Of a stretch of DNA of 64,000 nucleotides, positions 3,892-16,905 are shown in pieces (positions within the stretch are counted from its first letter, which is position 1; each line of letters begins with the position of its first letter). The notes beneath the pieces are model-generated. The model saw only the letters and a program-made list of their open reading frames with translations. It was not told where the DNA came from and made no database searches. Origin of the DNA: Rhodobacterales bacterium 32-67-9 (GTDB taxonomy: Bacteria; Pseudomonadota; Alphaproteobacteria; Rhodobacterales; Rhodobacteraceae); NCBI GenBank assembly GCA_002280515.1, contig NCEA01000014.1:1-64000 (forward strand), read 5' to 3'. The translations under genes and the position numbers were made by a program.

Positions 3892-4601
3892 TGGGACAGA
3901 AGGTCAACCCGATCGGCATGCGCCTCCAGGTCAACCGCACCTGGGACAGCCGCTGGTACGCCGACAGCAAGGACTACGGCAACCTGCTTCTTGAAGACCT
4001 CAAGATGCGCGAGTTCATCCACGACTACGCCAAGCAGGCCGGTGTCTCGAAGGTCATCATCGAGCGTCCGCACAAGAAGTGCCGCGTGACGATCCACACG
4101 GCGCGTCCGGGTGTCATCATCGGCAAGAAAGGCGCGGACATCGAGACGCTGCGCAAGAAGCTGGCGAACTTCACCGCGTCGGAACTGCACCTAAACATCG
4201 TCGAGGTCCGCAAGCCTGAACTGGACGCCGCCCTGGTCGCGGAATCGATCGCCCAGCAGCTCGAGCGTCGGGTCTCGTTCCGCCGCGCGATGAAGCGTGG
4301 CGTGCAGAACGCGATGCGGATGGGCGCCCTTGGCATCCGGGTCAACGTCGCCGGCCGTCTCGGCGGCGCGGAAATCGCCCGGACCGAGTGGTACCGCGAA
4401 GGCCGCGTGCCTCTGCACACCCTGCGTGCCGACATCGACTATGCTCTGGCCGAGGCGACGACCCCCTACGGGATCATCGGCATCAAGGTCTGGATCTTCA
4501 AAGGCGAGATCATGGAGCATGACCCCCAGGCTCGCGACCGCAAGGCCGCCGAGGCCCAGGACGGTCCGGCACCCCGCGGCCCGCGCCGCGACGCCCGGTA
4601 A
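3891..4601 (+). CDS. rpsC: 30S ribosomal protein S3
   Basis: 236 residues. It begins [12 protein letters not shown]. The KH domain carries the [12 protein letters not shown] loop (about residues 64-75), and the C-terminal domain has [12 protein letters not shown]3 lines the mRNA entry channel. The end is a short, variable, Pro/Arg-rich tail. rplP follows after 12 bases. Confidence 0.98.
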
Positions 4602-4613
4602 GGAGTAGGAAAG

Positions 4614-5027
4614 ATGCTGCAACCGAAACGGACCAAGTTCCGTAAACAGTTCAAGGGCAAGATCAGCGGCGAGGCCAAGGGCGGCTTCGAGTTGAGCTTC
4701 GGCGGCTTCGGCCTGAAGGCGACCGAGCCCGAGCGCATCACCGCGCGGCAGATCGAGGCGGCCCGCCGCGCGATCACCCGCCACATGAAGCGTCAGGGCC
4801 GGGTGTGGATCCGCGTGTTCCCGGACGTTCCGGTCTCGTCGAAACCGACCGAGGTGCGTATGGGTAAGGGCAAGGGCTCCGTCGATTACTGGGCGGCCAA
4901 GGTCAAGCCCGGCCGCGTGATGTTCGAGATCGACGGCGTCAACGAGGTCATCGCCCGCGAGGCGCTCCGCCTCGGCGCGATGAAGCTGCCGATCAAGACC
5001 CGCGTCGTGGTCCGCGAAGACTGGTAA
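4614..5027 (+). CDS. rplP: 50S ribosomal protein L16
   Basis: 137 residues, full length: it begins [15 protein letters not shown] and ends with the conserved [12 protein letters not shown] stretch. L16 helps position A-site tRNA. The gene is intact and followed by a terminator. In most bacteria rpmC follows directly; here about 1.7 kb intervenes. The last ~100 bases, plus the terminator, are present a second time in degraded form at 5773-5914. Confidence 0.97.
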
Positions 5028-5037
5028 GCTGATAAGC

Positions 5038-5058
5038 GGATGGGCATATTGCCCATCC
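5038..5058. repeat. Palindrome in the rplP 3' region
   Basis: GGATGGGCA and TGCCCATCC form a 21-base palindrome with almost no loop, followed by CTACGG. It looks like a dispersed palindromic (REP-like) unit of the kind common between Rhodobacter genes. The second rplP copy has a different sequence ending in CCTACGG at the matching place. Confidence 0.45.
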
Positions 5059-5068
5059 TACGGGATTG

Positions 5069-5097
5069 GCCCCCGCCGGAAACGGTGGGGGCTTTTT
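5069..5097 (+). terminator. Rho-independent terminator after rplP
   Basis: A strong stem GCCCCCGCC / GGTGGGGGC with a short loop is followed directly by five Ts. It should end S10 operon transcription after rplP, so the spc half needs its own promoter. A degraded copy lies at about 5879-5914. Confidence 0.85.
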
Positions 5098-5146
5098 CGT
5101 TGCATTCCGTCCGTGTATGCCGGGCCAAGCGCAAAGGAACCCCGTC

Positions 5147-5770
5147 ATGGCCGACATCACCTCTCTCTTCGTCACCCGCCTCTACCGCGCCGCTCTGAAC
5201 GATCTGGCGAGGCCCAGGATCGACGGCGATGAACTGCGGGCCACGTGCGAGTTGATCGCCGAGGAGGACGAGGCGGGCCAGATGTGGTGCGAGGAGAACG
5301 GCTATCCCGGCTATACCTCCTATGCCTCGCTGAACGATCTGCCCTTGCGCGCACCGGTCTTTGCCGATCTCAGGAAGGCGCTCGACAAGCACGTCGCGGC
5401 CTTCGTGACAGACCTCGGCTTCGATCTCGGCGCGGGCAAGCTCAAGTGCGACAGCCTCTGGATCAACATCCTGCCCGAGGGCGGCACCCATGCGAGCCAT
5501 ATCCACACCCATTCGGTGATCTCCGGCACCACCTATGTCGCGATGCCCGAAGGCACCTCGGCGCTGAAGCTCGAAGACCCCCGCCTGCCGATGATGATGC
5601 ACGCGCCCCTGCGCCGGAAGGATGCGGGGCGGGAGCTGCAACCCTTCGTCTACGTGAAGCCCGAGGTCGGGGACGTCCTCTTGTGGGAAAGCTGGCTCCG
5701 CCACGAAGTGCCGATGAACATGGCCGAAGACGAGCGGATTTCGGTGAGTTTCAACTACAACTGGGCGTAG
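5147..5770 (+). CDS. Putative 2OG-Fe(II) oxygenase (TIGR02466-like)
   Basis: 207 residues from the ATG at 5147. The C-terminal half has the features of the small 2-oxoglutarate/Fe(II) oxygenase family with a jelly-roll core: WINILPEGGTHASHIH, then SGTTYV, and later WESWLRHEVP with NMAEDERISVSFNYNW at the end. The HIH and the later RHEV histidine are the likely iron ligands. The substrate is unknown. The gene is the cargo between rplP and a displaced rplP fragment: its stop codon is only two or three bases before that fragment begins. It sits after a terminator, so it must have its own promoter or be read through. GC content is like its neighbours. Confidence 0.8.
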   Translation: MADITSLFVTRLYRAALNDLARPRIDGDELRATCELIAEEDEAGQMWCEENGYPGYTSYASLNDLPLRAPVFADLRKALDKHVAAFVTDLGFDLGAGKLKCDSLWINILPEGGTHASHIHTHSVISGTTYVAMPEGTSALKLEDPRLPMMMHAPLRRKDAGRELQPFVYVKPEVGDVLLWESWLRHEVPMNMAEDERISVSFNYNWA

Positions 5771-5772
5771 CT

Positions 5773-5914
5773 GGCTCGCGTGGCGTTCGAGATCGACGGC
5801 GAAGCTGCCGATCACAACTCGCATCGTGGTTCGCGAGGACTGGCAAATGGGTTGGGCTGAAGTCCGGCCTACGGATTTGGCCCCTGCCGAAAACGGCGTG
5901 GGTCTTTGCTTTTT
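5773..5914 (+). repeat. Degraded second copy of the rplP 3' end and terminator
   Basis: Base-by-base reading matches this stretch to 4915-5100. GTTCGAGATCGACGGC is identical to 4922-4937. A deletion of 44 bases follows. Then 43 bases ending GACTGG match 4982-5024 with six differences by eye. The rplP stop TAA has become CAA. The terminator region (CCTACGG, GGCCCCTGCCG...) is still recognisable but its stem is eroded. The unit is a direct repeat flanking the oxygenase gene. It cannot encode functional L16. Confidence 0.85.
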
Positions 5915-5971
5915 GGGCTGACTTCGTTCTATGGTCGCGCCGCACTCCTACAGAGACGCAGGTGCGTTTTT

Positions 5972-6559
5972 ATGAACTTGCTACACGCCTTCAATTGCTT
6001 GCTCCTACCGTGTCGTGACAACGCCGATGAGCACCATTGGATGAGCCAATGGGAGGCGGCGCTGCCGAACTTGACCCGCGTCGTTCAGGACGAATGGGTC
6101 GACCCGAAACTGGGGCCTTGGGCCGCGCGTCTGGACGAATATGTCGCCCGATGCACCCGGCCGGTTGTTCTGATCGCCCACAGCTTAGGGACGTCCTTGA
6201 TCATGCACCGGGCGCACCATTCGTTGGCGTCGCGCGTTGCGGGCGCCTTCATGGTTGCGCCATCGGATCGCGGCCCTGCTGACATCTGGCCGAATGCCGA
6301 CAGAAATGGCTTTGCGCCGATGATACTGAAACGGTTTCCGTTTCCCTCAATGGTGCTGGCCAGCCGCAATGATCCCTACGTCGCTTATCACCGCGCCCAG
6401 ACATTCGCCGAAGCCTGGGGGTCCGATCTGGTCGACATGGGCCAGTCAGGGCACATGGGGAACGCAGATCGCCTTGGGCTTTGGCCTCAGGGTCTAGAGC
6501 ACTTTGGGGCGTTTCTCTCTCGGATTGCGGTTGAGCGGAAACTTCTCACCAGCCAATAG
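5972..6559 (+). CDS. RBBP9/YdeN-family serine hydrolase
   Basis: 195 residues from the ATG at 5972. The alpha/beta-hydrolase fold is suggested by NCLLLP (first strand), DEHHWMSQWE, the nucleophile elbow LIAHSLGTSL (Ser at about residue 73), the acid in ASRNDPYV and the base in SGHMGNADRLGLWPQG. The last motif is typical of the RBBP9/YdeN group. The family normally has Pro-Gly after the first strand; here it reads PCRDN, so the first loop differs. The base composition is less GC-rich than the neighbouring ribosomal genes, suggesting transfer. The ribosome binding site is weak. The physiological substrate is not known. Confidence 0.75.
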   Translation: MNLLHAFNCLLLPCRDNADEHHWMSQWEAALPNLTRVVQDEWVDPKLGPWAARLDEYVARCTRPVVLIAHSLGTSLIMHRAHHSLASRVAGAFMVAPSDRGPADIWPNADRNGFAPMILKRFPFPSMVLASRNDPYVAYHRAQTFAEAWGSDLVDMGQSGHMGNADRLGLWPQGLEHFGAFLSRIAVERKLLTSQ

Positions 6560-6600
6560 CGCTGGGAGAACATGGGAATGGCAACACCCCACCTTTCCCC

Positions 6601-6629
6601 TTGCCCCCCGCCCGCACCTCCCTTATAGG
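6601..6629 (+). promoter_or_regulatory. Candidate promoter of the spc gene block
   Basis: TTGCCC (6601-6606) and TATAGG (6624-6629) are spaced by 17 bases, a good sigma-70 arrangement. It lies 110 bases before rpmC. A leader follows that contains an inverted repeat CACCAGA/TCTGGTG (6682-6718). As rplP ends in a terminator, this is the natural start for rpmC to rpmD transcription. Confidence 0.5.
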
Positions 6630-6738
6630 GACGCATCCTGCGATTCCGGGGTTCCGGGATTCGCATGTCCATCATTGACTCCACCAGATCAAGGGTGACC
6701 CGCAAGGGCCCTCTGGTGATGTGAGAAGGAAGAGGCGC

Positions 6739-6942
6739 ATGAACGCCACCGAACTGAAAGCGAAGACGCCCGACCAGCTCCGCGATGAGCTTGTCGCGCT
6801 GAAGAAGGAGGCCTTCAACCTCCGCTTCCAGCAGGCCACCGGCCAGCTTGAGAACACCGCCCGCATGCGCGCCGTCCGCCGCGACGTTGCCCGCATCCAG
6901 ACCGTTCTGAACCAGAAAGCCGCTGCGGCGGCGGCGAACTGA
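6739..6942 (+). CDS. rpmC: 50S ribosomal protein L29
   Basis: 67 residues from the ATG at 6739, preceded by GAAGGAAGAGG; this gives the normal [18 protein letters not shown] start. An in-frame GTG six codons upstream is less likely. Two helices, with the family signature [22 protein letters not shown], are present. L29 lies next to the tunnel exit beside L23. rpsQ follows after 11 bases. Confidence 0.97.
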
Positions 6943-6953
6943 GGACCACGCAC

Positions 6954-7193
6954 ATGCCCAAACGTATCCTGCAAGGCGTCGTGACCTCGGACAAGAACGA
7001 GCAGACGATCACCGTCCTCGTCGAGCGTCGCTTCAAGCACCCGCTGCTGCACAAGACCGTGCGGAAGTCGAAGAAATACCGCGCCCATGACGCGGAGAAC
7101 AAGTTCAAGGTCGGCGATACCGTGCGCATCGAAGAATGCGCGCCGATCTCGAAGACGAAACGCTGGACGGTGGTGAGCGACGCAACTGCGTAA
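6954..7193 (+). CDS. rpsQ: 30S ribosomal protein S17
   Basis: 79 residues. The OB-fold signature [19 protein letters not shown] and the [10 protein letters not shown] and [13 protein letters not shown] blocks are conserved. S17 binds 16S rRNA early in assembly. A 61-base gap with a small CTGGGG...CCCCAAAG hairpin separates it from rplN. Confidence 0.98.
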
Positions 7194-7254
7194 GCGCCCC
7201 TGAAAGCTCAATCGAAACCCTGGGGAATGATCCCCAAAGGTCGGGAGAAACCAA

Positions 7255-7623
7255 ATGATCCAGATGCAGACCAATCTGGATGTTGCTGACAACAGCGGCG
7301 CTCGCCGTGTTCAGTGCATCAAGGTCCTGGGTGGTTCCCATCGCCGTTACGCCTCTGTGGGCGACATCATCGTGGTGTCGGTGAAAGAAGCCATCCCGCG
7401 CGGCCGCGTGAAGAAGGGCGACGTCCGCAAGGCCGTCGTCGTGCGCACCGCCAAGGAAGTCCGCCGTGAAGACGGCACCGCAATCCGCTTTGACCGAAAC
7501 GCCGCCGTCATCCTGAACAACCAGGGCGAACCGGTCGGCACCCGTATCTTCGGGCCGGTCGTGCGCGAACTGCGCGCCAAGAACTTCATGAAGATCATCT
7601 CGCTGGCTCCGGAGGTGCTCTGA
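7255..7623 (+). CDS. rplN: 50S ribosomal protein L14
   Basis: 122 residues, exactly the family length. It begins [17 protein letters not shown] and contains [12 protein letters not shown]14 contacts the small subunit and is the target of the silencing factor RsfS. The last A of its stop codon is the first base of the rplX ATG. Confidence 0.98.
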
Positions 7624-7928
7624 TGGCTGCGAAACTCAAAAAAGGCGACACGGTCGTCGTCCTTGCCGGCAAGGACAAGGGCAAGAAGGGTGACATCCAG
7701 TCCGTCGATCCGAAGGCCAACAAGGCCGTGGTCGAGGGCATCAACGTCGCCATCCGTCACACCCGCCAGTCCCAGTCGAACCAGGGCGGCCGCCAGCCGA
7801 AGGCGATGCCGGTCGACCTGTCGAACCTGGCGCTGATGGACAAGAACGGCAAGGCAACCCGCGTCGGCTTCCGCATGGAAGAGGGCAAGAAGGTGCGCTT
7901 CGCCAAGACCACGGGGGATGTGATCTGA
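7623..7928 (+). CDS. rplX: 50S ribosomal protein L24
   Basis: 101 residues. A KOW motif ([17 protein letters not shown], about residues 6-22) and the conserved [10 protein letters not shown] and [12 protein letters not shown] blocks are seen. L24 starts large-subunit assembly and lies at the tunnel exit. It shares a base with both the rplN stop and the rplE start. Confidence 0.98.
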
Positions 7929-8488
7929 TGCTCGACCAAGCAACCTACACCCCGCGCCTCAAGGCCGCCTACCAGAGCAAGATCCGTGCCGCGCTGAAGG
8001 AGGAATTCTCCTACAAGAACGACATGCAGATCCCGCGGCTCGACAAGATCGTCCTGAACATGGGCGTCGGCGAGGCCGTCAAGGATACCAAGAAGGTCAA
8101 GCAGGCCGCGGACGAACTGAGCCTGATCGCCGGTCAGAAGGCGGTGATCAACAAGGCGAAGAAGTCGATCGCCGGCTTCCGCGTGCGTGAAGAGATGCCG
8201 CTCGGCACCAAGGTCACGCTGCGCGGCGACCGGATGTACGAATTCCTCGACCGCCTGATCACCATCGCGCTCCCGCGCGTCCGCGACTTCCGCGGCGTCA
8301 AGGGTTCCTCGTTCGATGGTCGTGGCAACTACGCGATGGGCCTGAAGGAACACATCGTGTTCCCCGAGATCGACTTCGACAAGGTCGACGAAGTTCTCGG
8401 CATGGACATCATCATCTGCACCACCGCGAAAACCGACGCGGAAGCGAAGGCGCTGTTGAAGCAATTCAACATGCCCTTCACCAGCTGA
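7928..8488 (+). CDS. rplE: 50S ribosomal protein L5
   Basis: 186 residues. Conserved blocks: [21 protein letters not shown]-equivalent region [30 protein letters not shown] and [19 protein letters not shown]5 binds 5S rRNA and P-site tRNA. rpsN follows after 19 bases. Confidence 0.98.
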
Positions 8489-8507
8489 TCGCGGGAGGAA
8501 AGAGACA

Positions 8508-8813
8508 ATGGCGAAGAAATCCATGGTGAACCGCGAAACGAAGCGCGCCAAGCTGGTCAAGCAGTATGCGGCCAAGCGCGCAGGCCTCAAGGCGGTGATC
8601 GAAGACCAGTCGCTGCCGATGGAAGAGCGTTTCAAGGCGACGATGAAACTGGCGAAGCTGCCGCGCAACTCGTCGGCGACGCGAATCCACAACCGCTGCC
8701 AGCTCACGGGGCGTCCGCACGCCTATTATCGCAAACTCAAGCTCAGCCGCATCATGCTGCGCGATCTCGCCTCGATGGGCCAGATCCCGGGCATGGTGAA
8801 GTCGAGCTGGTAA
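8508..8813 (+). CDS. rpsN: 30S ribosomal protein S14 (zinc-free type)
   Basis: 101 residues, the long zinc-free form. It begins [10 protein letters not shown] and has [15 protein letters not shown] followed by [12 protein letters not shown]. The four-cysteine zinc ribbon of the short form is absent. S14 binds in the head of the 30S subunit next to S3 and S10. Confidence 0.98.
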
Positions 8814-8826
8814 GGAGGAACGGGAA

Positions 8827-9225
8827 ATGTCGATGAACGATCCTCTCGGCGATATGCTGACCCGCATCCGCAACTCGCAGATGCGCGGCAAGTCCACCGT
8901 CCGCACGCCGGCCTCCAAGCTTCGCGCCTGGGTGCTCGATGTGCTGGCCGGCGAGGGCTATATTCGCGGCTATGAGAAGGTGACGGGGCCGACCGGGCTG
9001 CCGGAGCTGGAAATCAGCCTGAAATACTTCGAAGGCACTCCGGTGATCCGCGAAATCAAGCGCGTGTCGAAGCCGGGCCGCCGGGTCTACGCGAGCGTGA
9101 AGGACATTCCGTCCGTTCGCAACGGCCTGGGTGTCTCGATCGTCTCCACGCCGAAGGGCGTGATGTCGGATGCAAGCGCACGAACCGCCAATGTCGGCGG
9201 CGAAGTGCTCTGCACCGTCTTCTGA
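8827..9225 (+). CDS. rpsH: 30S ribosomal protein S8
   Basis: 132 residues. It begins [16 protein letters not shown] and ends with [12 protein letters not shown] and GGEVLCTVF, as expected. S8 binds helix 21 of 16S rRNA and in E. coli represses the spc operon. Eleven bases separate it from rplF. Confidence 0.98.
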
Positions 9226-9235
9226 GGAGGGCAAG

Positions 9236-9769
9236 ATGTCTCGTATTGGAAAAAGACCGGTCGAGCTGCCCAAGGGGGTGACTGCCTCCGTCTCGGGCCA
9301 GACCGTCGAAGTGAAGGGGCCGAAGGGCACCCGCAGCTTTTCGGCAACCGACGACGTGACCATCGCCATCGACGGCGATGCGATCACCGTGACGCCGCGC
9401 GGCACCTCGAAGCGGGCGCGCCAACAGTGGGGCATGTCCCGCTCGATGGTCGCGAACCTCGTCGAGGGCGTGTCGAGCGGCTTCAAGAAGGAGCTTGAGA
9501 TCAACGGCGTCGGCTACCGCGCGAACATGCAGGGCAATGTCCTGAAACTGTCGCTCGGCTACAGCCACGAAGTGAATTTCGACGTGCCGCAGGGCGTGAC
9601 CGTCACGACCCCGAAGCAGACCGAAATCGTTGTGGAAGGGATCGACCAGCAGCTTGTGGGTCAGGTCGCGGCGAATATCCGCGAATGGCGCGCGCCGGAG
9701 CCCTACAAGGGCAAGGGCATCAAGTACAAGGACGAGTACATCTTCCGCAAGGAAGGCAAGAAGAAGTAA
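9236..9769 (+). CDS. rplF: 50S ribosomal protein L6
   Basis: 177 residues from the ATG at 9236 after GAGGAGGGCAAG. It begins [15 protein letters not shown]. Two repeated alpha/beta domains are visible and the C-terminus ends [21 protein letters not shown] in two parts. A longer frame reaches back into rpsH without support. L6 lies near the factor-binding site. Confidence 0.98.
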
Positions 9770-9780
9770 GGACGCACATC

Positions 9781-10140
9781 ATGGCAAACAGCAAACGGGA
9801 TCTGTTCCTCAAGCGCCGCCTGCGCGTCCGGAACAAGCTTCGCAAGATGGCCGACGGGCGCGCGCGCCTCTCGGTTCATCGCTCCTCCAAGAACATCAGC
9901 GTGCAGCTGATCGACGACGTCAAAGGCGTGACCCTCGCCTCGGCCTCCAGCCTCGAGAAGGATCTGGGTGTCGTCGGCAAGAACAACGTCGAAGCGGCGG
10001 CGAAGATCGGCAAGGCGATTGCCGAGCGCGCCAAGAAGGCCGGGATCGACACCTGCTATTTCGATCGCGGCGGCTTCCTCTTCCACGGCAAGATCAAGGC
10101 CCTGGCGGATGCGGCCCGCGAAGGCGGTCTGAAGTTCTGA
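9781..10140 (+). CDS. rplR: 50S ribosomal protein L18
   Basis: 119 residues from the ATG at 9781. The basic N-terminus ([18 protein letters not shown]) and the C-terminal [21 protein letters not shown], read as two adjoining blocks, are typical. L18 binds 5S rRNA with L5. It is followed by an unusually long gap of 124 bases before rpsE. Confidence 0.98.
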
Positions 10141-10147
10141 GAACGGC

Positions 10148-10256
10148 GGGTGGCGTTCGCCGCGAGCGGCGCGTCACCCCGATGATCCGGGTCTCCGATC
10201 CAGTCGGGACACCAGGATTGGCCCAAACGGCGCGAGGCTCGCGCTACCATGCAAGG
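10148..10256. other. Structured spacer between rplR and rpsE
   Basis: These bases contain an imperfect inverted repeat in which GGTGGCG near 10149 can pair with GCGTCACC near 10171, and a second one, GCGCGAGGCTCGCGC, at about 10230-10245. There is no T run and no credible reading frame. The spacing between these two genes is short in most bacteria, so it may be a remnant of an insertion or a processing site. Confidence 0.35.
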
Positions 10257-10264
10257 AATGCCTG

Positions 10265-10831
10265 ATGGCAAGAGAAGACAACCGCAGGGACCGTCGCGAG
10301 CGCGACGAGAACCCGGAATTCGCCGATCGCCTCGTCGCGATCAACCGTGTGTCGAAGACGGTGAAGGGCGGCAAGCGCTTCGGCTTCGCGGCTCTCGTGG
10401 TGGTCGGTGACCAGCGCGGCCGCGTCGGCTTCGGCAAGGGCAAGGCCAAGGAAGTGCCGGAAGCGATCCGCAAGGCGACCGAACAGGCGAAGCGCAGCCT
10501 CGTCCGGGTGCCGCTGCGCGACGGTCGGACGCTTCACCACGACATCGAGGGCCGCCACGGCGCCGGCCGCGTCGTGATGCGCACCGCCCCCGCCGGTACC
10601 GGCATCATCGCCGGTGGTCCGATGCGTGCGGTGTTCGAGATGCTCGGCGTTGCGGACGTGGTTGCGAAGTCGATGGGCAGCCAGAACCCCTACAACATGA
10701 TCCGCGCCACGATCGACGGCCTCAAGCTGGAATCGAGCCCCCGGATGGTCGCGCAGCGTCGCGGCAAGAAGGTGGCCGACATCCTGAAGAAACCGGAAGC
10801 TGAGGCCTCGGCCGAAGCCGCCGAAGCGTAA
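10265..10831 (+). CDS. rpsE: 30S ribosomal protein S5
   Basis: 188 residues. The double-stranded RNA-binding domain ([20 protein letters not shown]) and the following [18 protein letters not shown] are conserved, as is the [19 protein letters not shown] loop. S5 takes part in decoding accuracy and helicase activity at the mRNA entry. rpmD follows after 12 bases. Confidence 0.98.
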
Positions 10832-10843
10832 GGAGCGAGAGAC

Positions 10844-11035
10844 ATGGCCAAGAAAACCATCGTCGTGAAGCAGATCGCTTCCGCCGCCCGTCGTCCGGAC
10901 ATCCAGCGCCGCACCCTGATCGGGCTCGGCCTGAACAAGATCAACCGCACGCGCGAGCTTGAGGACACGCCCTCGATCCGCGGCATGGTCAACAAGATCC
11001 CGCATCTTGTGACCATCGTCGAAGAGCGCGGCTGA
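10844..11035 (+). CDS. rpmD: 50S ribosomal protein L30
   Basis: 63 residues, complete: [13 protein letters not shown], then [13 protein letters not shown] and a C-terminal [14 protein letters not shown]. The last 128 bases including the stop codon occur again at 11890-12017 with one difference. rplO would normally come next; here a terminator and non-ribosomal DNA follow. Confidence 0.97.
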
Positions 11036-11068
11036 GTTCAAAGTAATATCCTCGAACGAGGTTTCAGG

Positions 11069-11100
11069 CGCCCCGGAGAAACCGGGGCGTTTTCGCTTTT
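11069..11100 (+). terminator. Rho-independent terminator after rpmD
   Basis: CGCCCCGG and CCGGGGCG form a stem with the loop AGAAA, followed by TTTTCGCTTTT. It ends the spc transcription unit after the intact rpmD. No matching sequence follows the second rpmD copy. Confidence 0.85.
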
Positions 11101-11110
11101 ACTCCCGCGA

Positions 11111-11138
11111 TTGTTGTGCCGAGGGCTGTTCCTATCGG
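11111..11138 (+). promoter_or_regulatory. Candidate promoter of the rpmD-linked cargo gene
   Basis: TTGTTG (11111-11116) and TATCGG (11133-11138) are spaced by 16 bases, downstream of the terminator and 70 bases before the cargo ATG. Both hexamers are imperfect. Confidence 0.3.
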
Positions 11139-11211
11139 CTCACGAAGGCTTGAAAACCCGTGATGGCCATCCAATGTGGAAGTCATGGAGCAACTCAAGG
11201 GGGATGGTGCA

Positions 11212-11868
11212 ATGCGTGGTGTCAAGGTGCTGCTGCCTTCGTTTGCTGTCATCAGCGCGCTCGCTGGTAACGCAAGCGCTGGCGTGTGTGATTATCGGCT
11301 CAGCCACTTGGTCAATCCGCCAGCAGCCACCACCGTGGTCAGTCTCGGCTGAGGCACAGCGGCAACTGGCGCTTTGTTCCATGCTGCCGGCTTCTATATC
11401 ATCACCCATTCCACTTCGGGCGCAGCGATGATCGGATCGACGGCTGTGGGATCATCCGCTGCCGGCACCGTTGGAATCATGGGCGGAACTGCAGGCGTAG
11501 CTGGAACAGTCGCCTCCATAATCAGCGCACCTGTAACCATCGTCGCCGGCGCTGTGACGGCGGTTGGCGTCAGCGTTGTCGAGGGCGGATGTTATTTTAC
11601 TGATGAGCGGATCACCGACTTTGGTCAGGTTCTCGCCGTGCTCGAGAAGGTTGATGAGAAAGCCGAAAAACAACACTTCGAGTTGGTGCGAACGACCGCT
11701 GCCCCCGCCTACATTCTGATCAACTTTGACGGCAGTGGTCTTGCGCGATTCGAGGTGGCGGACCTCTACATCGTCAACGGCGAGTTGCTGCACCGCGACT
11801 GGTTCCTCAACACCAGTCTGGGGTACATCGCAGCAACTATCGAGGAGGAGCAGGCTTCAGTTCCGTGA
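11212..11868 (+). pseudogene. Secreted glycine-rich protein gene with in-frame TGA
   Basis: One frame runs from the ATG at 11212 (preceded by AAGGGGGA) to the stop at 11866-11868, 219 codons in all, but is cut by TGA at 11350-11352 (codon 47). The first 23 residues look like a signal peptide ending in NASA, followed by GVCDYRLSHLVNPP. After the stop come glycine/alanine-rich hydrophobic stretches (STAVGSSAAGTVGIMGG and more, with GxxxG spacing), then EGGCYFTDERITDFG and a soluble C-terminal domain with [16 protein letters not shown]. The frame on both sides of the TGA reads as one protein, so this is a nonsense mutation, a sequence error or readthrough. Translation could restart at the ATG at 11374. 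GC content is visibly lower than in the ribosomal genes. I recognise no named family; the function is unknown. Confidence 0.7.
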
Positions 11869-12017
11869 AACTCGCTATTGACCGTCCAGGCCGCACCCTG
11901 ATCGGGCTCGGCCTGAACAAGGTCAACCGCACGCGCGAGCTTGAGGACACGCCCTCGATCCGCGGCATGGTCAACAAGATCCCGCATCTTGTGACCATCG
12001 TCGAAGAGCGCGGCTGA
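11865..12017 (+). pseudogene. Truncated L30 copy, possibly translated
   Basis: A GTG at 11865 overlaps the cargo stop (GTGA) and opens a 50-codon frame to the TGA at 12017. After eight new residues it reads as residues 22-63 of L30 with one change, Ile to Val, in [13 protein letters not shown]. The N-terminal strand and loop of L30 are missing, so it probably cannot replace L30. Selection or recent origin has kept the frame open. A purine-rich GAGGAGGAG lies about 15 bases before the GTG, which is far for a ribosome binding site. Confidence 0.6.
11890..12017 (+). repeat. Direct repeat of the rpmD 3' end
   Basis: These 128 bases equal 10908-11035 except for one substitution (AAGATC in the first copy, AAGGTC here). 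Similarity falls off within about ten bases on the left and stops exactly at the TGA on the right. The two copies bracket the terminator and the cargo gene, about 850 bases of intervening DNA. Confidence 0.95.
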
Positions 12018-12096
12018 CCGCGTGGCGGGGCAAGCCCCCGCCGTCCACCCCGGCCGTGTACGGGGCGTTCACATTAAAAGGACTTGGGTCCGACCA

Positions 12097-12130
12097 GCCT
12101 GCCGGCAGAAATGCCGGCAGGCTTCTGCTT
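12097..12130 (+). terminator. Terminator downstream of the second rpmD fragment
   Basis: GCCTGCCGGCA and TGCCGGCAGGC pair perfectly around a GAAA loop and are followed by TTCTGCTTT. Between 12018 and this hairpin no gene is visible. It may end read-through from the cargo, and on the other strand lies 80 bases past the end of the next minus-strand gene. Confidence 0.7.
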
Positions 12131-12209
12131 TCAGGGTGTGGTGTCACCTGAACCGACGCGCGGTGCGGAACGCGGGGCGCAGCTTCGGCCCGGCGGCCTC
12201 GGCCGCGCA

Positions 12210-12536
12210 TCAGCCCTTGTTGATCCGCTCGATATAGGCGCGCAGTTCTTCCGCTTCGTGACGGGCGTCGCGCAACCCGTCCATCGCGGCGCGAAGCTCC
12301 GCATCGCTCTGCCGGATCTGGTTCGTCAGCTCCGCTTCCCTGCTCTCAAGGAAGTTGACCGCCGCGTCGCGGGTCTCTTCCGCGTCGTGCAGGTCGCGCG
12401 CCATCTTCTCCAGTTCGCCCATTTCGGCCTGGGTGACGCGGCTCAGCCTGTGCAGAAGCCAGCAGGCGAACCAGCCGAGTCCGAAGGCCACGAAGAGGAT
12501 GATCGCCGTCGCGATGATGAATTCGGTTCTGTTCAT
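12210..12536 (-). CDS. Small membrane-anchored coiled-coil protein
   Basis: 108 residues. One N-terminal transmembrane segment (about residues 7-29, IIATAIILFVAFGLGWFAC) is followed by a long, charged, probably coiled-coil region rich in Glu, Arg and Ala. It lies 63 bases downstream of the OmpA-family gene on the same strand and may share its transcript. No enzyme motif is visible. The function is not recognised. Confidence 0.7.
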   Translation of the reverse strand: MNRTEFIIATAIILFVAFGLGWFACWLLHRLSRVTQAEMGELEKMARDLHDAEETRDAAVNFLESREAELTNQIRQSDAELRAAMDGLRDARHEAEELRAYIERINKG

Positions 12537-12599
12537 GGCCCTGCTTTGGCCTCTCCCTCGTTTCCGGTCAAGTGCCGGTGCCGCCGGTGTCTCCGGCGT

Positions 12600-14606
12600 T
12601 CAGTTGTCGGCTGGCTGGTCCGGCCGGGCTTTCGGTTTCGGCGTGGTGTCGTCGGGCGTCTGGACGGCGATCGCGACGTCGCCTCCGGCAACCTCCCCTC
12701 CGGTAACCTCCCCGCCGGTGGCATCTTCTCCGGCGGCCGTGGGCGTCGTCGTCTCCTGCGGCTTCAGCAGCCGGAACTCGATCCGCCGGTTCGCCTCGCG
12801 CCCTTCCTCTGTGTCGTTGTCGGCGATCGGCACGGTTTCGCCGTAGCCTTCCGCGACGAGGTTGCCGGTCAGCACCCGCCGGTTCATCAGCGCGGTGATG
12901 ATCGCCCCGGCGCGGTCCTGGCTGAGCGAGAGGTTCATCTCCTCGCGGCCCTGGCTGTCGGTATGGCCGCCGACTTCCATCGGAAAGTCGGAGCAGTCCT
13001 TCATCCGCTCGGCGATCTTGTCGAGCGTGTCACGCCCGTCAGCGGTGATCTGGGCGGAGCCAGGTTCGAAGTTGATCTTGTGCGCGGTGAGGATCGCGTT
13101 GATCTCGGCGACGCATTCCTCATCCGTCGGCAGGCCGAGCAGGGGATCGAGCTTTTCGTCGTAGCGGATCGAAAGCTCGTAATTCGCGCCCTCGCCAAGC
13201 CGGTCGGAGAGCAGCCGCGCGACAGTGTCGCTGGCATCTGTGGAGCCGGTGACGCCGGTGATGCGGATGATCTCGGGCCGCACATGGGCCGTGCCGTTGT
13301 CCAGTTCCCCGAGCGCTTCGAGGGCCGCCAGAACCCGGATCGGCCAGCCCGGCGGCATATCGGGCGCGAGCCGCGTCGCGGCATGAACAGAGGCCGAACC
13401 GAAGCGCGACCGGGCAAAGCTTTCGACCGCCCCACGCGACAACTCGTCGCCCAGCCGGCCGCGCATGTCGACCCGTCCGTCCGACGAAAGGGTCGCGGTG
13501 AATTCCGGGATCGTCGGGCTGCCGGCCTGCGCCACCGTCTTCGGCGTCAGCACGGCATGGAGGGAGAAGACCTCGGGCAGGTTCGATTCCAGCTCTCCTA
13601 CGACGCGGTCGAAGACTTCCTGGCTGACCGTTTCCGCCGCGATCAGCGAAATGTCGGCATCCGAATAGGTGATCGAGCCGGAGCCAAGCTCCTTCATCGC
13701 GGCAAGCCCCATCGTCACCGCGTCTGCCCAGGCCGGGGTCGGGACGCCAAGGCCGATGGTGCAGGCGTTCTTGCGGGTGGCGCCGGCGTCGGTCGCGGCG
13801 GCGAGGATGCGGTCGCGGGCGCGCTCGTTGTCGGCCGAGCAGGCATCGAACCGCGCGCCGTTGCCGTCGATGAGGAACCGCAAGGTGAAGGGCGTGATCA
13901 CCGGGCGCGGCGCCGAAATGTCGAGCGCGAGCCGAAGCCCCTTCGGCGCCTTGCGGCTCAGATCGGCCTCAAGCCGGGCCTTTTCGGCCGGGCTGTCGGA
14001 GATCGCGGTGATCGACACGCGGTCGGCGGCGATCGAGATCTTCGCGCGCGGCAGGCCGGCGAGCGCCTTGATGCCGTAGTCGAGCGCCTCGCGCCAGCCG
14101 GCAGGCACCGGGTGGTCGGCGGTCTCCAGCATGTCCGTCACGCTGCCGTCGCCGGCAAGCCCGTTGAGGTCGGCAACGATCTTTTCGCGCCCCGCGCCGG
14201 CCGGCACCAGCCCGATGAGAGAGATGCCGTCTCCGTTGCGCAGGATCTCGATGGTGAAATCCGGGGCTTTCAGGGCGGCGGGGTCGAGCACGTCCATCGC
14301 GTCGATCACCCGGTCGGCGTCGACCACGGTGGCCGCGACAGAGAGGGCGCGGAACCGTGCCGCCTCGGTCGGAGCGGTGCCGGCGAGCGCCACCTGAAGC
14401 CCGTCGGTCGTTACCTCGGCCCAGGTGTGGCCCGCCTCGGCCAGCGCCGCGGCGACGCCTTCGGCCGACCGCCGTTCCACCACTCCGGCGGCCCAGGTCG
14501 CGGTGAAGAGGCTGAGCGCGCCGGCCACCACGAAGGCGACAGGGGCGATCGCCTTGACCGGGACGGTCCGAGGCAGGCGGAGGGACTTCAGAAAGGGCAG
14601 AGACAT
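12600..14606 (-). CDS. OmpA-family protein with N-terminal anchor
   Basis: 668 residues. A membrane anchor lies at about residues 19-42. A long middle region resembles repeated BON-like or periplasmic segments. The C-terminal OmpA domain has ITADGRDTLDKIAE, VGGHTDSQGREEMNLSLSQDRA and NRRIEFRL, which are the peptidoglycan-binding signatures. A Pro/Thr/Gly-rich tail with repeated GGEV(T/A)GGEV follows. It probably links the envelope to peptidoglycan. The start gives MSLPFLKSLRLP. It lies 65 bases from the ubiA end on the same strand. Confidence 0.85.
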   Translation of the reverse strand: MSLPFLKSLRLPRTVPVKAIAPVAFVVAGALSLFTATWAAGVVERRSAEGVAAALAEAGHTWAEVTTDGLQVALAGTAPTEAARFRALSVAATVVDADRVIDAMDVLDPAALKAPDFTIEILRNGDGISLIGLVPAGAGREKIVADLNGLAGDGSVTDMLETADHPVPAGWREALDYGIKALAGLPRAKISIAADRVSITAISDSPAEKARLEADLSRKAPKGLRLALDISAPRPVITPFTLRFLIDGNGARFDACSADNERARDRILAAATDAGATRKNACTIGLGVPTPAWADAVTMGLAAMKELGSGSITYSDADISLIAAETVSQEVFDRVVGELESNLPEVFSLHAVLTPKTVAQAGSPTIPEFTATLSSDGRVDMRGRLGDELSRGAVESFARSRFGSASVHAATRLAPDMPPGWPIRVLAALEALGELDNGTAHVRPEIIRITGVTGSTDASDTVARLLSDRLGEGANYELSIRYDEKLDPLLGLPTDEECVAEINAILTAHKINFEPGSAQITADGRDTLDKIAERMKDCSDFPMEVGGHTDSQGREEMNLSLSQDRAGAIITALMNRRVLTGNLVAEGYGETVPIADNDTEEGREANRRIEFRLLKPQETTTPTAAGEDATGGEVTGGEVAGGDVAIAVQTPDDTTPKPKARPDQPADN

Positions 14607-14671
14607 AAGGCAGCGGACTTTCGCCGAAAATGGAACGCGCCCTTCCTAAGCGCCCCGGCCGGATGGATCAA

Positions 14672-15637
14672 TCAGAGGAACGCAGCTGCGGCAAGAAACA
14701 GCGCAGCGAGAAGCCCGGTCTCGCGGTTGGCGCGGAAAACCGCGAGACAGCCGGCCGGATCGTCGATGTCGAGCCGCCGCATCTGCCACAGAAGATGCCA
14801 GCCCACCGCCCAGGGCGCCGCCAGCGCCACGGCAAGCTTGAGCGGCCCCGCCACCGAAAGAAGCGCCACGAGAATCGCCGCCGACATCAGCGTCACGGTG
14901 AGGATCAGGAAGAGGCCGAGCCATTTCCCGGTCGCCGCCCCGAAGAGCCGCGCAGTGGACTTCACGCCGATCAGCACGTCGTCCTCCTTGTCCTGATGGG
15001 CGTAGATCGTGTCGTAGAAGAGCGTCCAGGCGATCCCCGAGGCATAAAGTAGAAGGCTCGCCACAGTGACGGTGCCGGAATGGGCGGCATAGGCGAGGAT
15101 CGCGCCCCAGTTGAAGGCCAGCCCGAGGAAGACCTGCGGCCACCAGGTGAAGCGCTTGGCGAAGGGATAGATCGCCACGAGCCCAAGCGAGGAGACACCA
15201 AGAAGGACCGTCACTCCGTTGTAGGAGAGAAGCACGAGGCCGGCGAGCGCCACCTGCGCCGCCATCCAGATCAAGGCCTGCCGCACCGTGACCTGCCCCG
15301 AGGGGATCGGCCGCGACCGGGTGCGGGCGACAGCCGCGTCGAAGTCGCGGTCGGTGATGTCGTTCCAGGTGCAGCCCGCCCCGCGCATCAACCAGGCGCC
15401 GGCCGCACAGCCGAACCAGATCCAGACGTCCCAGCCGCGCCAGCCATCGACGGCGGCGGCCAGCGCCACGCCCCACCAGCAGGGCAGGAGCAGGAGCCAG
15501 GTCCCGATCGGCCGGTCGGCGCGGCTGAGCCTCAGAAAGGGCCGCGTGGCTTCCGGCGCGAAACGGTCCACCCAGTTTCCCGTCACCGCGTCGGCGACCC
15601 GGTTCTCGGGCTCTGGCGTTCCGACGTTCGGGCTCAT
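14672..15637 (-). CDS. ubiA: 4-hydroxybenzoate polyprenyltransferase
   Basis: 321 residues from the ATG ending at 15637. It has the prenyltransferase motif NDITDRDFD (residues 92-100), followed by ARTRSRPIPSG, and a second Asp-rich motif near DTIYAHQDKEDD (about residues 205-216). Eight or nine membrane helices are apparent. The enzyme attaches the isoprenoid chain to 4-hydroxybenzoate in ubiquinone synthesis. It is divergent from rsmE with only 12 bases between the start codons. A longer upstream frame would run through rsmE and is rejected. Confidence 0.93.
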   Translation of the reverse strand: MSPNVGTPEPENRVADAVTGNWVDRFAPEATRPFLRLSRADRPIGTWLLLLPCWWGVALAAAVDGWRGWDVWIWFGCAAGAWLMRGAGCTWNDITDRDFDAAVARTRSRPIPSGQVTVRQALIWMAAQVALAGLVLLSYNGVTVLLGVSSLGLVAIYPFAKRFTWWPQVFLGLAFNWGAILAYAAHSGTVTVASLLLYASGIAWTLFYDTIYAHQDKEDDVLIGVKSTARLFGAATGKWLGLFLILTVTLMSAAILVALLSVAGPLKLAVALAAPWAVGWHLLWQMRRLDIDDPAGCLAVFRANRETGLLAALFLAAAAFL

Positions 15638-15649
15638 AAGTTCGGCCTC

Positions 15650-16387
15650 ATGGCAATGGCGAAGATCAGGCTCTGTGTAGACCATGCGCTCGGGGCGGGG
15701 CAATCGCTTCCCCTGTCCGAGGCGCAGGCGCATTACCTTTTCGGGGTGATGCGCGAAGGGGTGGGCAGCCGGGTTCTGGTCTTCAACGGACGCGACGGCG
15801 AATGGCTGGCCGAGGTGGTCGACGCCGGCAAGCGCAAGGGCCTCGTGTCCTGCATCGAGCGGACGAAGGCGCAATCGGCGCCCGCCGACATCTGGCTTGT
15901 CTTCGCGCCGGTCAAGAAGGCGCGCACCGATTTCATCGTCGAAAAGGCGGTGGAGCTTGGCGTGGCGCGCCTGGTGCCGGTTTCGACCGAGTTCACCAAC
16001 TCCGAACGGCTGCGCCGCGACAAGGCCGAGGCGCATGTGCGCGAGGCGGCCGAGCAATGCGGCGCGCTGTACCTGCCGGAGGTGGACGAGGTGATGCCGC
16101 TGCCGAAGCTGCTTTCCGGCTGGGACACGGCCCGTGGCCTGCTCTGGGCCGACGAGGCGCAGGCCGGGGCGGGCGCATCGCCGGCGGCAGTCCTTCGCGA
16201 TCTGGCGCCCGGTCCCTGGGCGATCCTGATCGGCCCCGAAGGCGGCTTCTCGGAGGTCGAGCGCGACCGGCTGCGCGCCCTGCCGTTCGTCCGGTCATTG
16301 CCGCTCGGCCCCCGCATCCTCAGGGCGGAAACGGCCGCGCTCGCGGCGCTGACACTCTGGCAGGCGCATCTCGGGGACTGGCGGTGA
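15650..16387 (+). CDS. rsmE: 16S rRNA (uracil-1498-N3)-methyltransferase
   Basis: 245 residues. It shows the SPOUT fold signatures ILIGPEGGFSEVE (about residues 192-204) and LGPRILRAETA (about 219-229), which form the knot binding S-adenosylmethionine, and an N-terminal PUA-like domain. Two ATG codons at 15650 and 15656 are both possible. The stop overlaps a GTG start of the next gene. Confidence 0.93.
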   Translation: MAMAKIRLCVDHALGAGQSLPLSEAQAHYLFGVMREGVGSRVLVFNGRDGEWLAEVVDAGKRKGLVSCIERTKAQSAPADIWLVFAPVKKARTDFIVEKAVELGVARLVPVSTEFTNSERLRRDKAEAHVREAAEQCGALYLPEVDEVMPLPKLLSGWDTARGLLWADEAQAGAGASPAAVLRDLAPGPWAILIGPEGGFSEVERDRLRALPFVRSLPLGPRILRAETAALAALTLWQAHLGDWR

Positions 16388-16905
16388 GCGTGGGTTTCCT
16401 GCGCCCCGAGGTCGCGGCCGGCCTGGTCCGCTGGCGCGAGGTGATCGCCTCGGTGGCGGCGCTGGCCATCGGGGGCTGGCTGGTCTGGCTCGGCGGGTGG
16501 TTGCTGATGCCGCTCGGCGCGGCGGTCGCCGTCCTCGCCGTCGCCTGGGGCCTGATCGCGCTCCGGCGACTGCGGTTCCTGCGCGGCGTCGCGGCGCCGG
16601 GGGTGGTCGAGGTTGACGAAGGCCAGATCGGCTATTTCGGCCCGACCTTCGGCGGCTTCGTGGCACTCTCCGATCTGGCGGAGGTCCGGCTCGCAGTCTT
16701 CTACGGCGCCCGGCACTGGCGGTTGAAGACGACGGCGGGAGAGGTGCTTCTGGTGCCGGTGGACGCCGCCGGGGCCGAGAAGCTCTATGACGCGTTCGCC
16801 GCCCTGCCGGGGATCGACATGGCCCGGCTCGCCGCCGCCATCGACCGGGGGGTGGAGACGCTGCCGCTCTGGCGCCGCGAGACTACAGCGCTGGCGCGCG
16901 ACTGA
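16384..16905 (+). CDS. Hypothetical two-helix membrane protein
   Basis: 173 residues. The GTG at 16384 overlaps the rsmE stop (GTGA), so it is likely coupled to rsmE. Two hydrophobic segments lie at about residues 19-37 and 37-56 (AALAIGGWLVWLGGWLL, then MPLGAAVAVLAVAWGLIAL). The rest is a soluble domain that looks like a beta-rich PH-like module (VVEVDEGQIGYFGP, LSDLAEVRL). No catalytic motif. It may be a conserved protein of this lineage. Confidence 0.75.
   Translation: MSVGFLRPEVAAGLVRWREVIASVAALAIGGWLVWLGGWLLMPLGAAVAVLAVAWGLIALRRLRFLRGVAAPGVVEVDEGQIGYFGPTFGGFVALSDLAEVRLAVFYGARHWRLKTTAGEVLLVPVDAAGAEKLYDAFAALPGIDMARLAAAIDRGVETLPLWRRETTALARD

Follow-up and report, generated by a model that had tools for sequence, protein, structure and literature searches.

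Displaced 3′ Ends of rpmD and rplP in a Ribosomal Gene Cluster of Rhodobacteraceae: Probable Homology-Anchored Gene Capture

Introduction

The S10-spc ribosomal operon is usually regarded as fixed. The minimal mobile elements of Neisseria are exchanged by homology on both sides, and integrative elements that insert at the 3′ ends of genes carry an integrase gene and recombine at a constant crossover site. For example, SGI1 is reported to insert at the 3′ end of trmE (PMC8409611). According to the account of experiments in E. coli with DNA carrying one homologous end, partial duplications were found in 56 of 60 Lac- clones; they measured 109-950 bp in the 14 that were sequenced, and the authors read them as single crossovers of circularised molecules (Amarir-Bouhram 2011, PMC3240628). 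True homology-facilitated illegitimate recombination (HFIR) was rare in that study, where it is described as leaving a deletion (PMC3240628). The T6SS effector-immunity modules of Vibrio cholerae are described as being displaced stepwise behind a conserved anchor, with HFIR as the putative mechanism (Kirchberger 2017, PMC5361080). The gene transfer agent RcGTA is reported to move fragments of ~4.5 kb, which are integrated by allelic replacement (PMC9690577), and gene insertions in the same operon cluster have been treated for Gammaproteobacteria and Bacilli (PMC8046335). Among the matches listed for insertions or partial duplications in ribosomal operons, none was on scars of the kind described below, and among those listed for rpmD with integration terms, none mentions rpmD. 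In this study, what we regard as new is that such a scar is seen at two genes within one ribosomal gene cluster and that one of them, rplP, offers an empty/filled pair.

Results

The Repeated End of rpmD and Its Cargo Gene

The window, by which we mean the whole stretch of 64,000 nucleotides analysed here, comes from Rhodobacterales bacterium 32-67-9 (genome G000), and the genes, repeats and terminators located in it below are on the forward strand. The intact rpmD gene encodes ribosomal protein L30 of 63 aa (10844-11035; Pfam PF00327, E 1.3e-18). Its 3′ end (copy 1, 10908-11035) recurs as a displaced fragment (copy 2, 11890-12017, traceable from ~11885; PF00327, E 3.6e-13), and the alignment of the two confirmed a repeat of 128 bases with one mismatch, at repeat position 33, where the intact gene has A and the fragment G. 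BLAST widens the repeat slightly (10902-11035 / 11885-12017, 98.5%), so that the fragment starts near nt 59 of rpmD. The sequences after the two stop codons gave an alignment score of 13, and 200 shuffles gave a mean of 9.0 and a maximum of 15.5; because these flanks align no better than shuffled sequence, the similarity stops at the stop codon. The preliminary description, which had proposed a nearly perfect repeat ending exactly at the stop codon and a functional gene standing first, was therefore right on these points: the intact L30 gene precedes the fragment.

An intrinsic terminator, a stem-loop with a T tail, lies 3′ of the intact gene (11066-11092), and a terminator-like stem-loop lies 3′ of the fragment (12096-12123). 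The 1110-base bracket region occurs at a single place in G000, and the one partial second copy of rpmD in that genome is the bracket's own. Within the first 20 kb of the window, the sole other such repeat is that of the rplP end (4982-5095 / 5801-5907). Rfam gave nothing at gathering thresholds in 10000-13000, and no sigma-70-like promoter was found in 4600-12300. The rpmD fragment still forms an open frame of 50 codons (11865-12017), whose GTG start overlaps the cargo stop, and by eye the corresponding fragment in Defluviimonas sp. SB22 (G018) likewise keeps the L30 frame. This is probably chance or youth, and a short L30 product from this frame is conceivable.

Between the copies, a terminator and one gene of lower GC had been described, and both are there: GC is 0.57-0.61 between the copies, compared with 0.57-0.71, mostly >0.61, upstream (8000-10899) and 0.64-0.74 downstream of the bracket, all in 300-base windows. 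The correction is that this cargo gene (11212-11868) carries an in-frame TGA at codon 47 (11350-11352). The frame is otherwise open in G000, and the single TGA would reflect either a recent loss of function or an error in sequencing. The intact relative in G018 encodes 216 aa, has a 100% match in NZ_WBUS01000009.1 and is 78% identical to the gene of G000. Over 215 codons the pair has a dN/dS of 0.18 at a dS of 0.78, which indicates that the cargo gene was under selection for most of the time since the two genes diverged. As had also been noted, no recombinase is visible in the bracket: a Pfam scan of its two cargo-frame ORFs returned no match, and thus no integrase. G000 as a whole has three PF00589 matches, and among the matches listed (two of the three), none lies inside the window.

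By eye, the cargo proteins have a signal-like start and a glycine/alanine-rich hydrophobic middle. The G018 protein had no match in Pfam or NCBIfam and no informative one in PDB, and the AlphaFold2 model of the cargo protein reached a mean pLDDT of 42.8. The G018 protein also had no match among phages; among plasmids there was one weak match, on a Roseivivax plasmid. Of the 394 sampled family genomes, 26 have a relative of the cargo gene, a count that takes in G000 and some weak matches, and 7 further loci lie in named genomes. In a cargo tree of 30 rows, 15 of the 27 inner branches stay open. G000 and G018 form a pair in it, as do the two rplP-linked members, and the rpmD-linked members do not all come together.

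The rpmD Locus in Related Genomes

When the locus was compared in relatives, the layout proved to be present in one and absent from others. G018 has the same arrangement. In the two genomes nearest by rpmD, G019 (97%) and G013 (95%), rpmD is followed by a GFA gene, and neither the cargo nor an rpmD fragment is found there. In G018, intact rpmD is followed by a flank beginning GTTCAAAG, as it also is in G000, and then by the cargo, a transposase tail (rve_3, E 5.3e-11, which we take to be of the IS3 family), the rpmD 3′ fragment (3 differences in 100 from its own rpmD) and, by eye, a terminator-like stem; DUF2585, MarC and GFA genes follow towards the contig end. A terminator-like stem 3′ of rpmD was also seen by eye in G019 and others. 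The fragment of G018 directly abuts the IS end (by eye, with the IS ends judged from the G013 copy), and its true start is therefore masked. In G018, rplO begins another contig, and alignment to contig C59 of G000 suggests that the rpmD and rplO contig ends of G018 adjoin.

A second partial rpmD that includes the 3′ end was found in 2 of 22 genus genomes, G000 and G018. In G006 there is also a 5′ piece of rpmD, at the edge of a contig; the matches in G020, G013 and G009 were short and weak. Of the 394 genomes in the family sample, which did not include G018, 373 matched rpmD, and two matches were found in G000 only, at a threshold that could miss a decayed fragment. Each rpmD fragment has the allele type of its own lineage, and intact rpmD therefore shows no foreign segment; the allele comparison was tried as a way to locate a foreign part of the gene and did not reveal one. 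The left edge of the G000 fragment briefly resembles the G016 type of rpmD by eye, over a stretch too short to use. The genomes compared hold no clean filled/empty pair for rpmD like the one described next for rplP.

A Second Scar at rplP

In the same cluster, intact rplP (ribosomal protein L16; 4614-5027; PF00252, E 1.5e-52) is followed by a terminator (5068-5093) and a second cargo gene, which is 2OG-Fe(II) oxygenase-like (5147-5770, start codon assumed; PF13759, E 2.8e-35). Behind it lies a displaced and decayed rplP 3′ fragment (5776-5847), with weaker similarity on to 5907 in the old terminator region, and then a serine hydrolase gene (5906-6559; PF06821, E 1.5e-45), a further non-ribosomal ORF of the rplP-rpmC slot. 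The slot ends at an ORF from GTG (6721-6942) with conserved tblastn hits in relatives, which we take to be rpmC, the next ribosomal gene. Thirteen genus genomes had rplP and rpmC on one fetched stretch, with the rplP of G017 cut by a contig end. The rplP 3′ fragment is present in three of these intervals (G000, G001 and G013), and the remaining 10 showed none at the threshold used.

The order in G013 is rplP, a methyltransferase-like gene on the opposite strand (PF13578), an rplP fragment with its terminator, and the oxygenase gene. The stretch of fragment, terminator and oxygenase in G013 aligns with the intact rplP end, terminator and oxygenase of G000 over 326 columns at 80.7%. Because this G000 arrangement is undisturbed, G000 is the empty site for the G013 cargo, and the pair fixes the direction of insertion at rplP: new cargo enters beside intact rplP, and the old gene end is pushed downstream together with what followed it. 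In both G000 and G001, the oxygenase gene precedes the fragment, and these two genomes may share one older event.

The rplP fragments do not begin at one point. That of G000 reaches back past nt 300 (0 of 1000 shuffles attain the score); that of G013 has no similarity above chance before ~nt 347 (273 of 1000 shuffles), and that of G001 none before ~nt 369 (863 of 1000), with the reservation that decay or deletion can shift apparent starts and that there is a gap within the G000 fragment. The G013 fragment seemed to extend weakly upstream, which would have brought its start nearly to that of G000, but this extension was at chance level and was rejected. Because the starts differ, no common attachment core is seen.

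Variable Slots in the Ribosomal Cluster

In the 13 genus intervals from rplP to rpmC, the length ranges from 364 to 4312 bases, and in the 12 from rpmD to rplO it ranges from 425 to 3141 bases. The rplP slot contains the oxygenase gene in 4 of 13 (G000, G001, G013 and G017), and its other ORFs were each found in a single species of the genus, except for one family common to G001 and G002. The rpmD slot is less varied, with the GFA gene in 9 of 12 and differing extra ORFs alongside. These contents were named by eye, apart from the oxygenase, hydrolase and methyltransferase genes and the GFA, MarC and DUF2585 genes of G018. The presence of different genes between the same conserved genes, as in a slot of the minimal mobile element kind, is clear for rplP-rpmC.

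The rpmD cargo family is itself found in both slots. Three genomes of other genera have it in the rpmD-rplO slot, namely Gemmobacter nectariphilus (L099), Pseudorhodobacter PARRP1 (L098) and G258 (L120), with no rpmD fragment in any of the three and no integrase-like ORF noticed by eye in their slots; G324 (L111) and G043 (L115) have it in the rplP-rpmC slot. By tblastn placement, 7 of 31 distinct genomes, G000 and G018 included, carry the family in the rpmD or the rplP slot; L128, which had no tblastn hit, was left out of this count.

Genome Context and Control Survey

Behind the rpmD fragment, at 12018-12210, lies a synteny-break zone, and the DNA from ~12210 on belongs to another chromosomal place in G013, where its counterpart is at C2:569740 and rpmD at C2:899948, 330 kb apart. 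In G000, rplO is on a separate contig, C59 (124700-124850), behind ychF-like and GFA genes. These two facts indicate that the S10-spc cluster is broken in G000, whose assembly is a 60-contig draft, 93.6% complete. A simple two-break exchange was not borne out as the cause of the rearrangement, the three places concerned being far from one another in G013. G014 likewise has rpmD and rplO on separate contigs, each gene ~4 kb from its contig end.

A control survey was made for direct repeats 200-6000 bases apart at E 1e-6. The 335 kb surveyed in G000 (contigs C11 and C59) gave 6 close direct repeats; two of them are the ribosomal protein gene ends, and three of the other four, on inspection, looked like protein domains in repeat or an intergenic repeat. 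The 400 kb surveyed in G013 gave 46 rows, namely the rplP scar, 5 others and 40 rows in a repetitive block (348-364 kb of the stretch). Two of the 5 others were inspected and are related neighbouring genes; rows outside the inspected set could hide another scar.

Discussion

Probable Homology-Anchored Capture

We believe that homology-anchored gene capture is probably the best explanation of the rpmD and rplP scars. Incoming DNA from a relative, consisting of a conserved ribosomal protein gene end, its terminator and the cargo, would arrive by gene transfer agent, transformation or conjugation, and would recombine by homology at the conserved gene end of the recipient. A GTA-type gene (PF13547) is present in all 22 genus genomes. 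On the far side, the fragment may have been end-joined into a circle and taken in by one crossover, which would duplicate part of the homologous stretch; alternatively, an illegitimate join may have formed inside the recipient's own copy (HFIR). Since what the scars show is a duplication, and HFIR products are described with a deletion, the single-crossover form fits at least as well as HFIR. The product would have the gene intact, then terminator and cargo, and behind them the old 3′ end in its displaced position, and the scar would persist because the essential gene remains whole. What we infer from these arrangements is the part of RecA, how the DNA entered, the sequence of steps and a single mechanism common to the rpmD and rplP scars.

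The end of the repeat at the stop codon, without an attachment site, would follow from capture because donor and recipient are alike in the conserved coding sequence and not in the flanks. Capture would have taken place at rpmD and at rplP, and at rplP at least twice. The scars stand at two genes with unrelated cargo, at rpmD in G000 and G018 and at rplP in G000, G001 and G013, and the scattered starts at rplP would be expected if a homologous anchor were combined with a non-homologous join to any cargo, which is support and not proof. Several findings count against capture. No donor was found, and the fragments, being of their own lineage's allele type, reveal no foreign segment in rpmD. The like cargo and flanks of G000 and G018 could stem from one old event, the left junction of G018 is masked by an IS end, G000 and G001 may share one rplP event, and decay can move the apparent starts. 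HFIR is rare in experiments and is described as giving a deletion, and relatives of the rpmD cargo lie in tRNA-repeat segments, once with an integrase remnant.

It is doubtful, though conceivable, that a unit of ribosomal protein gene end, terminator and cargo acts as a recombinase-free mobile cassette, with the ultra-conserved end of an essential gene serving for attachment and the RecA of the host for recombination. A crossover between the two direct repeats would then free a circle that the rpmD or rplP of a relative could take up; each uptake would regenerate gene and terminator, and GTA particles would be the natural carrier.

Alternative Explanations

An unlikely alternative, to which we still give some weight, is a decayed site-specific element whose tyrosine recombinase targeted rpmD and whose integrase was later lost, leaving the cargo between attL and attR. 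The layout itself speaks for it, for a direct repeat of the gene 3′ end with the gene left whole is present at rpmD, and the intact gene first and the displaced end second form the classical order. So does the cargo family. In a Loktanella MAG (L100, 4691-5892), a cargo relative lies in a 1.1-kb segment between 54-bp perfect repeats that cover 49 nt of the tRNA-Gln 3′ end, and in G277 (L108, 6558-9331) another lies in a 2.7-kb segment that is flanked by a 24-nt repeat of the tRNA-Ala end and contains the truncated arm domain of an integrase (PF13356, E 1.1e-12). These tRNA-end repeats and the integrase remnant indicate that the family travels on integrase islands elsewhere. The L100 segment also shows by eye what appear to be the last 50 residues of an integrase, which Pfam did not match. 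Near the cargo of L117 and L119 there are tRNA-Lys and tRNA-Gly genes without a clear repeat; moderate direct repeats surround the cargo at L104, L105, L108 and L113, those inspected not being neighbour-gene ends (by eye), and at other loci repeats are weak or absent.

Against a site-specific element stand the lack of an integrase match in the scanned ORFs of the G000 bracket, the other rpmD-linked cargo that has no rpmD fragment (Gemmobacter, Pseudorhodobacter and G258), and rplP, where the cargo is unrelated. Such an element predicts a constant crossover point, and the rplP start points differ. The preliminary description had likened the bracket to an integrated element that restores its target gene; the insertion that keeps the gene whole and displaces its old 3′ end is supported, and a recombinase-driven element at rpmD is not.

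A single old insertion in the ancestor of G000 and G018, lost elsewhere and with its repeat kept alike by gene conversion, is rather improbable as the full explanation. The cargo identity of 78% is about that of other G000/G018 DNA (77%, 12018-16900 region), and GTTCAAAG follows intact rpmD in both genomes, so the homologous cargo and flanks could reflect one old gene-converted event rather than two captures. However, the insertion is absent from G019 and G013, which are far closer to G000 in rpmD. The explanation also requires repeated conversion and losses, and it accounts for persistence and not for origin.

It is very unlikely that the cargo was brought in by an IS3-family element or that such an element gave rise to the duplication. 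The transposase tail between cargo and fragment in G018 and the fragment abutting the IS end (by eye) would favour it, as would a similar IS in the rpmD slot of G012 (by eye), but no IS trace was noticed in the G000 bracket, and IS ends on both sides of the cargo were not found, one end being seen, by eye, in G018 only. An IS insertion alone does not copy 130 bases of a gene end, and the IS of G018 is better read as a later arrival. An assembly artefact or strain mixture is the least credible reading, for although G000 is a 60-contig draft whose sequence past the fragment jumps to a region located elsewhere in relatives, G018 independently has the same layout and a two-copy repeat of such a kind should permit one linear path.

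Significance and Comparison with Known Systems

If homology-anchored capture is right, two junctions of the S10-spc cluster act as docking slots for unrelated genes, and the displaced ends record the direction of capture. Single genes would then enter a genome repeatedly without a mobility gene of their own, anchored by highly conserved DNA, and the displaced gene end would be a readable scar by which further captures can be found.

The rpmD and rplP scars resemble several described systems and differ from each. Like integrative elements such as SGI1, the rpmD bracket has its insertion at the 3′ end of a gene; unlike them, it showed no integrase in the ORFs scanned and no fixed crossover site as far as the fragment starts can be read, that of G018 being masked by an IS. 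Minimal mobile elements of Neisseria likewise have variable genes between fixed conserved genes and no mobility gene of their own, whereas the scars in the ribosomal slots show one-sided joining. The V. cholerae T6SS modules, as that study describes them, are alike in having a conserved upstream anchor, the new module adjoining it and old 3′ parts layered downstream, and they differ in that the effector gene or its domain is exchanged while the ancestral immunity genes persist (PMC5361080); at rpmD and rplP, the anchor is an essential housekeeping gene that stays whole, with cargo unrelated to it. The likeness to the E. coli system, as far as its account goes, lies in one homologous end, one non-homologous join and, mostly, a partial duplication around foreign DNA (PMC3240628). 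Those were laboratory events at lacZ with plasmids, whereas here the events are natural, lie in a ribosomal protein operon and concern two genes.
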